5,383 bases of DNA from DASVDK01 sp036562265 [NCBI: Thermodesulfobacteriota bacterium] (lineage in GTDB: Bacteria; DASVDK01): contig DATCKS010000444.1 of the NCBI GenBank assembly GCA_036562265.1, positions 1 to 5,383 on the forward strand, read 5' to 3'. Below, in pieces: positions 1,510 to 5,383 of the stretch. The notes beneath the pieces are model-generated. The model was not told where the DNA came from and did not search any database. It worked only from the letters and a program-made list of their open reading frames with translations. Positions within the stretch are counted from its first letter, which is position 1; the number at the start of each line of letters is the position of its first letter. The position numbers and the translations under genes were made by a program.

Positions 1510-1536
1510 TTAGCACTCTCGTACGAAGAGTGCTAG
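1510..1536 (+). promoter_or_regulatory. CIRCE operator (HrcA-binding inverted repeat)
   Basis: The sequence reads TTAGCACTC, nine bases, then GAGTGCTAG. The CIRCE consensus is TTAGCACTC-N9-GAGTGCTAA, so 17 of 18 arm positions match and the spacer has the exact length; only the last base differs (G for A). CIRCE is the binding site of the heat-labile repressor HrcA, which normally controls groESL and dnaK operons. Here it lies 44 bases upstream of the FmdB-type gene and on top of its probable promoter, so HrcA binding should block transcription at normal temperature. hrcA itself is not in the window. Confidence 0.9.
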
Positions 1537-1539
1537 AAT
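1510..1539 (+). promoter_or_regulatory. Probable sigma-70-type promoter embedded in the CIRCE element
   Basis: A -35-like TTAGCA (1510-1515) lies within the left CIRCE arm. A -10-like TAGAAT (1534-1539) begins in the right arm, with an 18-base spacer. TAGAAT matches TATAAT at five of six positions. Initiation would be expected near 1546, giving a leader of about 35 bases before the FmdB-type start. Overlap of both promoter boxes with the operator arms is a common CIRCE arrangement and explains repression by occlusion. Confidence 0.6.
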
Positions 1540-1580: not shown

Positions 1581-1904
1581 ATGCCCATCTACGAGTACGT
1601 CTGTCCCACCTGCGGCACTTTCGAGGAGATGCAGAAGTTCTCGGACCCGGTCCTGACCGTCTGCCCGCAGGGCCACGGGGGGGTCGAGCGGAAGATCTCC
1701 GCCTCGGGTTTCATCCTCAAGGGCTCCGGGTGGTACATCACCGACTACGCCCGCAAGGGGAACAGCGGCGGCTCGGTGTCCAACGGCGCCGGCAAGAGCG
1801 ACGCCGCCTCGGGCGAGGCCAAGCCGTCCGGGGAGAGCAAGCCCTCTTCGGAGGCCAAGGCCGGTTCGGAGAGCAAGCCGGCTGCCGCCGGGAGCGGTGC
1901 CTGA
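1581..1904 (+). CDS. FmdB-family zinc-ribbon protein with repeat tail, 107 aa
   Basis: This is a small cytoplasmic zinc-ribbon protein of the FmdB (CxxC_CXXC_SSSS) family. The family is named after a proposed regulator of formamidase/acetamidase genes, but its biochemical role is unclear. The N-terminus MPIYEYVCPTCG is diagnostic, with C8 and C11 as the first zinc pair. The rest of the domain (FEEMQKFSDP, VERKIS, then FILKGSGWYITDY at 44-56) is also typical. The second zinc pair is odd: the usual CPxC reads C28-P-Q-G31-H32, so the fourth cysteine is missing, and H32 may substitute. Residues 57-107 form a hydrophilic low-complexity tail rich in Ser, Gly, Lys, Glu and Ala. The start at 1581 is set by a GGAGGT site and by the family N-terminus. 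The gene stands alone between a CIRCE-controlled promoter and a strong hairpin, which suggests a heat-shock or proteostasis link. Family assignment is firm; the role is unknown. Confidence 0.9.
   Translation: MPIYEYVCPTCGTFEEMQKFSDPVLTVCPQGHGGVERKISASGFILKGSGWYITDYARKGNSGGSVSNGAGKSDAASGEAKPSGESKPSSEAKAGSESKPAAAGSGA
1812..1883 (+). repeat. Four imperfect 18-bp tandem repeats coding the FmdB-type tail
   Basis: The units encode GEAKPS, GESKPS, SEAKAG and SESKPA (residues 78-101). Units 1 and 3 share GAGGCCAAG, and units 2 and 4 share GAGAGCAAG, so the pattern looks like a doubled 36-bp unit that has since diverged. The peptide is charged, flexible and probably disordered. Confidence 0.7.
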
Positions 1905-1916
1905 CCGCTCCCGGCG
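1886..1916 (+). terminator. Strong hairpin across the FmdB-type stop codon, probable terminator
   Basis: A perfect 13-bp inverted repeat (1886-1898 with 1904-1916, core GGGAGCGGT/ACCGCTCCC) encloses a 5-base loop. The stop codon TGA (1902-1904) begins in the loop and its last base is the first base of the right arm. No clear T-run follows directly, only a weak TTTA at 1933, so termination may be of the U-poor type seen in GC-rich genomes. The hairpin could instead protect the mRNA 3' end. Confidence 0.6.
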
Positions 1917-2013: not shown

Positions 2014-2892
2014 ATGGCCAATATCCTGAACGGCAAGGCCGTGGCGCAGGCTGTACGGGCTCGGGTCGCCGCCGAAGCCGCCGCGCTCGTCCGGACGACC
2101 GGCGTGACGCCGGGTCTGGCCGTCGTGCTCGTCGGCGACGACCCCGCCTCGGCGGTCTACGTGCGCAACAAGGACCGCGCCTGCCGCGAGGCGGGCATGG
2201 CGTCGACCACCCACCACCTGCCGGCCGACACCTCCGAATCGGCGCTCCTCGACCTGCTCGCCCGGCTCAACGCCGATCGGACGGTCCACGGCATCCTCGT
2301 CCAGTTGCCGCTGCCGAAGCACATCCGCGAGGCGCGGGTGCTCGAGGCGATCGACCCGGCCAAGGACGTTGACGGCTTCCACCCGGAGAACGTCGGCCTC
2401 TTGACGATCGGCCGGCCCCGCTTCGTGCCGGCGACCCCGGCGGGCATCGTGGCGCTCCTCGAGGCGGCGGCGGTCGACCCGGCCGGACGGCGGGCCGTCG
2501 TCATCGGCCGCAGCAACATCGTCGGCAAGCCGGCCGCCCTCCTGCTCCTGCACCGCCACGCGACCGTCACCGTCTGCCACTCGCGCACCGCCGACCTGCC
2601 GGCGGTCGTCCGCGAGGCCGACATCGTCGTGGCCGCCATCGGCAAGCCGCAGGCGGTCAAGGGCGACTGGATCAAGCCTGGCGCCGTCGTCATCGACGTC
2701 GGCATCAACCGGCTGCCGGACGGGCGCCTCGTCGGCGACGTCGAGTTCGAGGCGGCCTCGCGCGTGGCCGGCGCCATCACGCCGGTGCCGGGCGGGGTCG
2801 GCCCCATGACGATCGCCATGCTCCTCGACAACACCCTGGCCGCGGCCAGGCGCGCCGCGGCCGTTGCCGCCGGTGTGAAGGACACGCCATGA
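2014..2892 (+). CDS. folD: Bifunctional methylene-THF dehydrogenase / methenyl-THF cyclohydrolase FolD
   Basis: FolD is a cytoplasmic homodimer that oxidises 5,10-methylene-tetrahydrofolate to methenyl-THF, usually with NADP+, and hydrolyses it to 10-formyl-THF. The 292-residue length is normal. The N-terminal catalytic domain shows the [17 protein letters not shown] signature, with Y49 and K53 matching the active-site Tyr and general-base Lys. ILVQLPLP (Q97) and the folate-site motif KDVDGFHP (D120) follow. The Rossmann domain carries [12 protein letters not shown] (161-172), HSRT (188-191), ADIVVAAIG (201-209) and VIDVGIN (225-231). The C-terminal motif PGGVGPMT (258-265) closes the family pattern. 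The usual PCTP motif reads PATP (138-141), a tolerated variant. ATG 2014 gives the standard family N-terminus, although its Shine-Dalgarno site is weak. The stop overlaps the gcvT start by four bases (ATGA), indicating translational coupling. FolD consumes the methylene-THF made by the genes downstream. Confidence 0.97.
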
Positions 2893-4013
2893 CAGAGACA
2901 GCCCTCAAGCGCACCGCGCTCTTCGAGCAGCACCGGGCCCTCGGCGCCCGGATGGTCCCGTTCGGTGGGTGGGAGATGCCGGTCCAGTACCGCGGCGTGC
3001 TCGAGGAGCACGAGGCCGTGCGGACGAAGGCGGGGCTCTTCGACGTGAGCCACATGGGGGAACTCGTCGTCGACGGTCCGGGCGCCCTCGACGCGGTGCA
3101 GCGGGTCGTCACGAACGACGCCTCGACGCTCGAGGTGGGCCAGGTGCAGTACGCCGCCATGTGCCTGCCGACCGGCGGCACGGTCGACGACCTCACCGTC
3201 TACCGCCTCGGTCCGGAGCGCTACCTCCTCTGCGTGAACGCGGCGAACATCGACAAGGACTTCGCCTGGGTCACGGAACAGGCCGGCGCCACCCCGGGGG
3301 CCACGATCCGCAACGAGAGCGACCAGTGGAGCCTGCTCGCGCTCCAGGGGCCGCGGGCCGAGGCGATCCTCGGCGGGCTCACGCGCGCCGACCTCGCCGG
3401 CCTGGCCTACTACCACTGCACGCCGGCCGAGGTGGACGGCGTGCCGGCCATCGTGTCCCGCACCGGCTACACCTGCGAGGACGGCTTCGAGATCTTCGTG
3501 CCGTGGAACGCCGGCCCGCAGATCTGGCGCCGGATCCTCGAGGCGGGAGCGGGCGAGGGGATCCAGCCGATCGGCCTCGGCGCCCGCGACACGCTCCGGC
3601 TCGAGATGAAGTACGCCCTGTACGGCCACGAACTCGACGAGACGACGACGCCGCTCGAGGCGGGGCTCGGCTGGATCGTCAAGCTCGACAAGGGGGACTT
3701 CGTCGGGCGCGACGCCCTCGCGAAGCAGAAGGCCGAGGGGATCCGCAAGAAGCTCGTCGGCTTCGAGGTCGAGGGCTCCGGCATCGCCCGCGCCGGGCAG
3801 ACGATCCACCGTCCGGGCGACGCCGCGCCGGTCGGCACCGTCACGAGCGGCACGATGTCCCCCACGCTGAGGAAGCCGATCGGCCTCGGCTACGTCCCGC
3901 CCGACCTGGCCGCCGTGGGGACGGCACTCGAGGTCGACGTGCGGGGGCGGCGCGTCCCGATCCGCGTCGTCAAGACCCCGTTCGTCCCGAGCCACACCAA
4001 GAAGGCCGCCTGA
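2889..4013 (+). CDS. gcvT: Glycine cleavage system T protein (aminomethyltransferase)
   Basis: GcvT takes the aminomethyl group from lipoyl-GcvH, releases ammonia and gives 5,10-methylene-THF. At 374 residues it has full family length. Visible motifs include [13 protein letters not shown] (22-34), [10 protein letters not shown] (49-58), VTND (74-77) and [11 protein letters not shown] (96-106). The D100-D101 pair in the last of these contains the catalytic aspartate, equivalent to Asp101 of E. coli. Also present are LALQGP (150-155), [12 protein letters not shown] (191-202), [19 protein letters not shown], and the C-terminal barrel motif [18 protein letters not shown]. The normally conserved TGYTGEDG is TGYTCEDG here (C196). 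The start overlaps the folD stop (ATGA) and has AAGGA (2878-2882) at good spacing. gcvH begins 18 bases after the stop. The assignment is firm; related aminomethyltransferase-fold proteins such as YgfZ or sarcosine oxidase are excluded by these motifs and by the operon. Confidence 0.97.
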
Positions 4014-4021
4014 GGCCTCCC

Positions 4022-4028
4022 GGAGGTG
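4022..4028 (+). promoter_or_regulatory. Shine-Dalgarno site that decides the gcvH start
   Basis: GGAGGTG sits just before ATG 4032, with three bases between. The alternative in-frame GTG at 4026 lies inside this ribosome-binding sequence and cannot have its own well-spaced site, so ATG 4032 is the better start. Confidence 0.85.
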
Positions 4029-4031
4029 ACG

Positions 4032-4415
4032 ATGAAGTTCCCGGCCGACCTGAAGTACACCAAGGACCACGAATGGTTGCGGCGCGAGGGGAACGTCGCC
4101 GTCGTCGGCATCACCGACCACGCGCAGGACGCGCTCGGCGACGTCGTGTTCGTCGAGCTGCCCCAGGTCGGCGCCGCGGTGAAGGCGAAGGGGACCTTCG
4201 GCGTCGTCGAGAGCGTCAAGGCGGTGTCGGACCTCTACTCGCCGGTCACCGGCACGGTCATCGAGGTGAACTCGAGCCTCCCCGACAACCCGGAGACCGT
4301 GAACAAGGACCCGTACGGGCAGGGCTGGATGATCAAGGTCGAGATGAGCGACCCCACGGAGATCGACGGCCTCATGAGCGCCGCCGACTACGAAGCCTAC
4401 CTCAAGGAGAGCTGA
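4032..4415 (+). CDS. gcvH: Glycine cleavage system H protein (lipoyl carrier)
   Basis: GcvH is the small lipoylated shuttle that carries the aminomethyl intermediate from the P protein to GcvT. From ATG 4032 it has 127 residues, the usual size. YTKDHEWL (9-16) is the typical N-terminus, GITDHAQDALGDVVFVELP (26-44) is the family signature, and ESVKAVSDLYSPVTG (60-74) surrounds the lipoyl-accepting lysine K63. NKDPYGQGWM and the C-terminal LMSAADYEAYL are also characteristic. All key residues are present, so it should be active once lipoylated. The lipoylation enzymes are not in the window. It lies between gcvT (18 bases upstream) and gcvPA (5 bases downstream), and its 3' end contains the ribosome-binding site for gcvPA. 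Confidence 0.98.
   Translation: MKFPADLKYTKDHEWLRREGNVAVVGITDHAQDALGDVVFVELPQVGAAVKAKGTFGVVESVKAVSDLYSPVTGTVIEVNSSLPDNPETVNKDPYGQGWMIKVEMSDPTEIDGLMSAADYEAYLKES
4404..4410 (+). promoter_or_regulatory. Shine-Dalgarno site for gcvPA inside the end of gcvH
   Basis: AAGGAGA lies within the last codons of gcvH, 10 bases before GTG 4421. It supports the GTG start and suggests that translation of the two genes is linked. Confidence 0.65.
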
Positions 4416-4420
4416 GCCCC

Positions 4421-5383
4421 GTGCGATACATCTCCACCACCGAGGCCGAGCGCAGGACGATGCTCGACGCCATCGGCGTGGCGTCGGTGGACGACCTCCT
4501 CGCGCCGGTCCCGAAGGCGCTGCGCGACGGGGCGGCCATCCGCCTGCCGGACGCCGAGCCGGAGCCCGACCTGATGCGGCGGCTCAAGGCGATGGCGGCG
4601 AAGAACGCCGACAGCGACCGGACGCCGTCCTTCCTCGGCGCGGGCGTCTACCCGCACTTCCAGCCGTCGGTCGTTCCGCACCTCGCGCTCCGGGCCGAGT
4701 TCCTCACGAGCTACACCCCCTATCAGCCGGAGGTGGCCCAGGGGACGCTGCAGGCGATCTTCGAGTTCCAGACGATGGTCGCCGCGCTCTTCGGCATGGA
4801 GATCGCGAACGCCTCCATGTACGACGGCTCGACCGCCGCGGCCGAGGGGGTCCTCATGGCGCGTCGCGTCACCAGGCGCGATCGCGTGCTGGTCGCGCGG
4901 AGCCTGCACCCCGAGTACCGCGCCGTCATCGAGACCTACGGGCAGCGGATCGGCCTCGACGTGCAGACGATCCCGGTCGGGCCGACGGGGGCGGTGGAGC
5001 CGGCGAGCCTCGCCCTCGACGACCGCGTGGCGGCGGTCGTGGTCGGCCACCCGAACTTCTTCGGCGTCGTCGAGCCGCTCGGCGAGATCGCCGAGGCGGC
5101 GCACCGGGCGGGCGCCCTGCTCGTGACCAGCACCCCCGAGGCGCTCGCCCTCGCGCTCCTCAAGGGGCCGGGCGCCCTCGGCGCCGACATCGCCACCGGC
5201 GAGGGGCAGTGCTTCGGCGTGCCGGTCTCCTTCGGCGGCCCGCACGTCGGCCTCTTCGCCACCCGCGAGCGGTTCCTGCGGCAGATGCCGGGGCGGCTCG
5301 CCGGCGAGACGGTGGACGCGAGCGGCAAGCGCGGCTACGTCCTCACGCTCTCGACGCGCGAGCAGCACATCCGGCGCGAGGCG
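4421..5383 (+). CDS. gcvPA: Glycine dehydrogenase (decarboxylating) subunit 1, GcvPA, 3' end outside window
   Basis: This is the N-terminal half of a split glycine decarboxylase (P protein). With GcvPB it removes CO2 from glycine and loads the aminomethyl group onto lipoyl-GcvH. Reading from GTG 4421 gives MRYISTTEAERRTML and 321 residues with no stop before the window edge; the family is about 445-450 residues, so roughly the last quarter is missing. Motifs in order: PSFLGAGVYPHFQP (69-82), TSYTPYQPEVAQGTLQAIFE (96-115), ANASMYDGST (129-138), HPNFFGVVEPLG (210-221), GEGQCFGVPVSFGGPHVG (260-277), RQMPGRLAGETVD (287-299) and TLSTREQHIRRE (309-320). The last matches the stretch just before the conserved KATSNIC region, now off-window. 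The GTG start has AAGGAGA (4404-4410) upstream and follows gcvH by 5 bases. The PLP lysine resides in GcvPB, which should follow. A fused gcvP is less likely because the short N-terminus and sequence fit the split form. Confidence 0.95.
   Translation, partial: MRYISTTEAERRTMLDAIGVASVDDLLAPVPKALRDGAAIRLPDAEPEPDLMRRLKAMAAKNADSDRTPSFLGAGVYPHFQPSVVPHLALRAEFLTSYTPYQPEVAQGTLQAIFEFQTMVAALFGMEIANASMYDGSTAAAEGVLMARRVTRRDRVLVARSLHPEYRAVIETYGQRIGLDVQTIPVGPTGAVEPASLALDDRVAAVVVGHPNFFGVVEPLGEIAEAAHRAGALLVTSTPEALALALLKGPGALGADIATGEGQCFGVPVSFGGPHVGLFATRERFLRQMPGRLAGETVDASGKRGYVLTLSTREQHIRREA

Follow-up and report, generated by a model that had tools for sequence, protein, structure and literature searches.

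According to our analysis, a putative CIRCE operator for the repressor HrcA lies across the promoter of a gene encoding a small FmdB-family zinc-ribbon protein in the 5,383-nucleotide stretch of DNA studied here (the window). We consider it probable that an HrcA operator here overlaps the promoter of a gene of the Ruc type, whose product would be an HrcA-repressed, stress-induced putative chaperone with readier activity. Rv0991c (Ruc) of M. tuberculosis is directly repressed by HrcA, induced by heat, and controlled by SigH, as described in the excerpted text of PMC7448276. According to the same excerpt, Ruc binds one zinc through cysteines and requires its disordered C terminus for activity, the protein, once oxidized, keeps others from aggregating and helps DnaKJE to refold them, and several phyla have ruc homologues in the neighbourhood of chaperone genes. 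The initial annotation had guessed that the zinc-ribbon protein of the window may assist chaperones, which, by analogy, fits these experiments on an HrcA-repressed and heat-induced homologue (PMC7448276, in excerpt); in view of the Ruc work, which the annotation does not mention, the hypothesis has an established precedent, although from a lineage other than that of the window.

A CIRCE operator interlocked with a sigma-70-like promoter

The operator occupies positions 1510 to 1536 of the forward strand, with arms at 1510 to 1518 and 1528 to 1536, and reads TTAGCACTC-TCGTACGAA-GAGTGCTAG. It differs at a single position from the CIRCE consensus TTAGCACTC-N9-GAGTGCTAA, as printed in PMC545781, and its spacer is exactly 9 bases long. 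This match at 17 of 18 positions, which confirms the site and the spacing claimed in the initial annotation, is the only one in the window at up to 3 mismatches, and none arose in 200 shuffles. Given the base composition, about 3e-7 such sites are expected per window-sized sequence, for at most 1 mismatch on one strand and with bases treated as independent. Judged from its sequence, the operator is real.

A consensus scan places a sigma-70-like promoter, TTAGCA-18-TAGAAT, at 1510 to 1539 of the forward strand, interlocked with the operator. The -35-like hexamer TTAGCA (1510 to 1515) and the -10-like hexamer TAGAAT (1534 to 1539) are separated by an 18-base spacer, match the consensus at 9 of 12 positions, and have a TG ahead of the second hexamer; the scan of positions 1400 to 2100 returned 2 sites, and shuffles gave a mean of 0.0. 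The overlap with -35 and -10 boxes that had been proposed for the repeat was thus recovered, and the end coordinate 1539 given for it earlier takes in the -10-like hexamer. Two marks of CIRCE membership, the consensus with exact spacing and the location in a promoter (consensus scan), are found at the window site. The operator starts 71 bases 5' of the FmdB start codon, compared with 74 or 75 bases in relatives, and GGAGG at 1565 to 1569 of the forward strand, read from the sequence, is the likely ribosome binding site. The footprint alignment used below consists of the window and of L001, L097, and L098, the loci of the genomes G001 (Acidobacteria bacterium ACD2), G022, and G030. A promoter scan of L001 and L097 (L098 lay outside it) detected no sigma-70-like site close to the operator of either relative; by eye, TTGACG-17-TACTCT overlaps the right operator arm in L001.

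A Ruc-like protein with three ribbon cysteines

The gene behind the operator (1581 to 1904, forward strand) encodes a protein of 107 amino acids that scores 63 bits for TIGR02605 (cut-off, 31.3) and 55 bits for PF09723 (cut-off, 34.4), in agreement with its earlier assignment to the FmdB type. Homologues occur in the 80 best-ranking of 297 related stretches, which served as the set of homologous fmdB loci. AlphaFold2, run on an alignment of 32 sequences, predicts that residues 1 to 40 are folded, with pLDDT values of 87 to 93 in blocks of ten, and that the remainder is disordered. The folded part, encoded at 1581 to 1700 of the forward strand, is the zinc ribbon, with C8, C11, and C28 as likely ligands; position 31 is Gly and position 32 is His. 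The ribbon is followed by a KGxGWYxTDY motif, as in the nearest relatives, and the protein ends in a hydrophilic tail (residues 59 to 107; 1755 to 1901, forward strand), which is composed mostly of Ser, Gly, Ala, Lys, and Glu and is predicted to be disordered, with pLDDT values of 50 to 64 and no secondary structure. By its predicted model and composition, the protein has the build of the Ruc family, an N-terminal ribbon with a disordered hydrophilic tail.

The four zinc cysteines that Ruc carries in two CxxC pairs are incomplete in the window protein. C8, C11, and C28 are kept, and positions 1671 to 1676 encode Gly31-His32; of the 106 aligned rows, 104 have Cys at position 31. The two-pair pattern fails in five of these rows, namely, the window; L023, which has His instead of its third cysteine; and L043, L051, and L057, which differ only in a wider spacing of the final two cysteines. 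Two genomes outside the 106-row alignment, G013 (L135) and G033 (L136), have lost Cys11 at the start of fmdB (CPKDG and CSRDG, respectively), and both are without the operator; the loss of a single cysteine is thus not unique to the window and recurs in the family of G001. The Gly31 codon may be a base error in the window sequence. Since the fourth cysteine is absent, we name the protein Ruc-like rather than Ruc, and we regard this absence, a departure from the definition of Ruc that we tested, as the most interesting detail of the predicted protein.

In Ruc, the four-cysteine zinc site holds the protein inactive until oxidation, and Cys-to-Ser replacements in either pair cause loss of the zinc and leave a reduced protein that is chaperone active (PMC7448276, excerpted text). 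With the fourth cysteine missing, the zinc site of the window protein may be weaker, or it may be completed by His32, and the protein would be more readily active and would depend more on transcriptional control. Since the cysteine-pair replacements in Ruc gave activity without oxidation, the window protein may, by analogy, be partly constitutive, with HrcA as the main switch.

A different role for the protein is conceivable even where HrcA binds the operator: it could be an FmdB zinc-ribbon factor of some other kind, for example, one that binds nucleic acids, and could merely be made upon heat. No solved structure matches the protein by sequence up to an E value of 1, and structure comparison gave weak matches only (Z of at most 3.5), the closest among the 50 matches listed being generic zinc ribbons such as those of aRF1, RbpA, and MCM, which, like the absence of one of the four cysteines, would suit such a factor. 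To our knowledge, most members of the FmdB family have also remained untested. We nevertheless consider this alternative unlikely, since a zinc ribbon, a disordered hydrophilic tail, and control by a heat repressor are the very features described for Ruc in the excerpted text of PMC7448276. By homology, a chaperone role of the window protein is likely.

Extent of the transcription unit

Downstream of fmdB, at 2014 to 5383 of the forward strand, Pfam and NCBIfam identify folD, gcvT, gcvH, and the 5' part of a gene for the glycine cleavage P-protein; these genes probably form a unit of their own. At 1886 to 1916 (forward strand), a perfect 13-pair, GC-rich hairpin spans the fmdB stop codon and overlaps the final codons of the gene; the fold of positions 1880 to 1960 has a free energy of -38.6 kcal/mol. 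The strong hairpin that the initial annotation had seen after fmdB is therefore real, but it is not recognizable as an intrinsic terminator: the terminator scan scored none at this hairpin, and no T run follows it.

It is against this background that the operator might govern a longer unit, fmdB-folD-gcvT-gcvH-gcvP, and so tie heat stress to one-carbon metabolism. All of these genes lie on one strand, the gap between fmdB and folD is 109 bases, the hairpin has no T run, and in L067 (an Oligoflexia record, 6001 to 11800) folD likewise stands directly 3' of fmdB, with gcvT-gcvH a few kilobases further. However, folD has a promoter-like site of its own, TTTACA-18-TAGATT, at 1933 to 1962 of the forward strand (consensus scan), and L067 is the only one of the best 80 of 297 loci in which tblastn places folD close behind fmdB, some contigs ending soon after fmdB. 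In L074, folD is found about 4 kb from fmdB on the opposite strand. We know of no link between HrcA and folD, and we judge the longer unit improbable.

As for the rest of the window, the 478-codon open frame upstream matches nothing in Pfam or NCBIfam at an E value of 0.001, no Rfam family reaches its gathering score, and a scan of viral contigs found no relatives of the window GcvT. A FolD search in the class of G001 gave 58 to 61% identity for the six best matches, all of which belong to the family of G001; the organism of the window is therefore probably a close neighbour of this family.

Conservation of the operator

Among the best 80 of 297 loci, a CIRCE element within 300 bases upstream of fmdB is present in one, L001, which is the closest locus and has 2 mismatches; in the other 79, none was found within 300 bases, where the best candidates have at least 5 mismatches. 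All 14 genomes in the family of G001 encode an FmdB protein bearing GxGWYxTDY, and the operator precedes its gene in three of them (G001, G022, and G030); in the remaining 11, the 300 bases before the orthologue hold no CIRCE element, with at least 7 mismatches at best. The initial annotation had proposed looking for CIRCE before fmdB-like genes in related genomes, and the element is indeed there in these three relatives, but its distribution is narrow, at 3 of 14 family genomes and 1 of the best 80 of 297 loci. A strict pattern that combines the operator core with the gene start was matched by 3 of 17 genomes in the order and, with the gene-start codons slightly altered, by 1 of 396 in the phylum of G001. 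It was matched by 0 of 12 genomes in a mixed set and by 1 of 385 from the phylum to which the Desulfonauticus locus L027 belongs. A near-identical draw from the phylum of G001 that left out G001 gave 0 of 396, a result that again points to rarity but is not independent of the other draw, and G022 and G030 are in neither of the two.

Of the 18 arm columns in the footprint alignment, 17 are identical in all four sequences. The corresponding counts are 2 of 9 columns in the loop, 5 of 80 upstream, 9 of 49 from the operator to the start codon, and 23 of 40 in the aligned coding part. The loop and flanks have thus drifted while the arms held, as expected for a selected protein-binding site, and the window operator is very likely under selection. 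That the palindrome arose by chance or survives as a relic, without being bound by HrcA, as its absence from most examined relatives of the gene might suggest, is hardly credible in view of the minute chance expectation per window and the sharp footprint in four diverged sequences.

The genome of G001 contains no CIRCE element within 3 mismatches other than the fmdB operator, and the backward-read control yields 0. One of its two groES genes (L172) is preceded by a tandem pair of weak CIRCE-like sites, each with 4 mismatches, the upstream one of which has TTGACA inside its spacer, as do the groES sites of G022 (L171) and G028 (L169). Across the class of G001, 107 of 149 genomes have a site at up to 3 mismatches; the backward-read control at 3 mismatches also matches many of the class genomes, and weak sites therefore carry little weight. 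For 29 loci with CIRCE-like sites among the matches listed for the class, the genes behind are groES (14), hrcA (10), hsp20 (2), fmdB (2, in G022 and G030), and unclear (1), where groES, hrcA, and hsp20 were named by eye from the N termini.

HrcA and a case in another phylum

An hrcA gene scores above the cut-off in G001 (275 bits), in G030, and in G873 (349 bits), a genome of another phylum; none was found in G022, whose completeness is not stated. Two of the three Acidobacteriota relatives bearing the fmdB operator (G001 and G030) thus have hrcA. The membership in the HrcA regulon that had been suggested for the zinc-ribbon gene is upheld by an operator kept in three diverged relatives, of which two have the repressor gene, and is tempered by the narrowness of this conservation. 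HrcA control of the FmdB-family gene of the window is very likely.

In G873 (L178), TTAGCACTC-N9-GAGTGCCAC, with 2 mismatches, lies at 1498 to 1524 and ends 24 bases before an FmdB gene (1549), whose product likewise matches TIGR02605. The -10-like box of this locus ends at 1492, which puts the operator at about the transcription start and not across the promoter. Together with M. tuberculosis, this case suggests that HrcA control has been recruited repeatedly.

A tree of 29 FmdB rows, based on the first 70 residues, places the window nearest to G001, G030, and G022, but 17 of its 26 inner branches are open, and the five rows with CIRCE require 3 changes. Being poorly resolved, it neither shows nor excludes that the operator arose only once in the clade of the window, G001, G030, and G022, and it cannot prove that the recruitment in G873 was independent. 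Two records, L074 (titled Clostridiales) and L017 (titled Acidimicrobiia), group in the phylum and in the class of G001, respectively, and are probably mislabelled.

Proposed mechanism

In the reading that we prefer, an HrcA-controlled Ruc-like chaperone gene, HrcA would sit on both arms of the operator at normal temperature and shut out RNA polymerase. Under heat or protein-folding stress, HrcA activity would be lost and the gene transcribed, and the protein would then hold unfolded proteins for the DnaK and GroEL systems. A broader proposal, which we offer only tentatively and hold to be rather doubtful, is that HrcA gained control of genes of the Ruc type on separate occasions in three or more phyla, its operator being variously placed relative to the promoter, and that the window may carry an always-on version of the protein, gated by HrcA and not by oxidation.

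To the one HrcA-Ruc link found in print, our analysis adds cases from Acidobacteriota and one from another phylum. The added cases would strengthen the view that this widespread family of small zinc-ribbon proteins belongs to protein quality control.

Comparison with known systems

Our literature searches found no work joining FmdB with CIRCE or HrcA under those names and none on CIRCE and HrcA in Acidobacteria; for the HrcA regulon and zinc ribbons, the Ruc study (PMC7448276) was the sole relevant match. The excerpted text of PMC545781 lists groESL, hrcA-grpE-dnaKJ, and rpoH for delta-proteobacterial CIRCE sites and, within that excerpt, no zinc-ribbon gene; it also indicates that Escherichia coli has no HrcA/CIRCE regulon. 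With the classical HrcA/CIRCE operons, groESL and hrcA-grpE-dnaKJ, the window shares the operator sequence, its 9-base spacing, and its position near the gene start, whereas the controlled gene is not groES, hrcA, or dnaK. Compared with the FmdB family at large (TIGR02605 and PF09723), the window protein scores above the curated cut-offs and shares KGxGWYxTDY with its nearest relatives, but it has Gly in place of the fourth ribbon cysteine, and 79 of the best 80 of 297 homologous loci are without CIRCE.

The closest likeness is to Ruc as it appears in the excerpt of PMC7448276: both are small stand-alone proteins with an N-terminal zinc ribbon and a disordered hydrophilic C-terminal tail, and both genes have an HrcA site in the promoter. 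They differ in that Ruc has four cysteines and the window protein three cysteines and a histidine, that ruc is induced through SigH whereas the window promoter looks sigma-70-like, that the phyla are different, and that the window is known from sequence alone. The missing cysteine resembles the hand-made changes that switch the Ruc chaperone on without oxidation (PMC7448276, in excerpt), and the window protein would therefore allow a direct test of the trade-off between redox gating and transcriptional gating.
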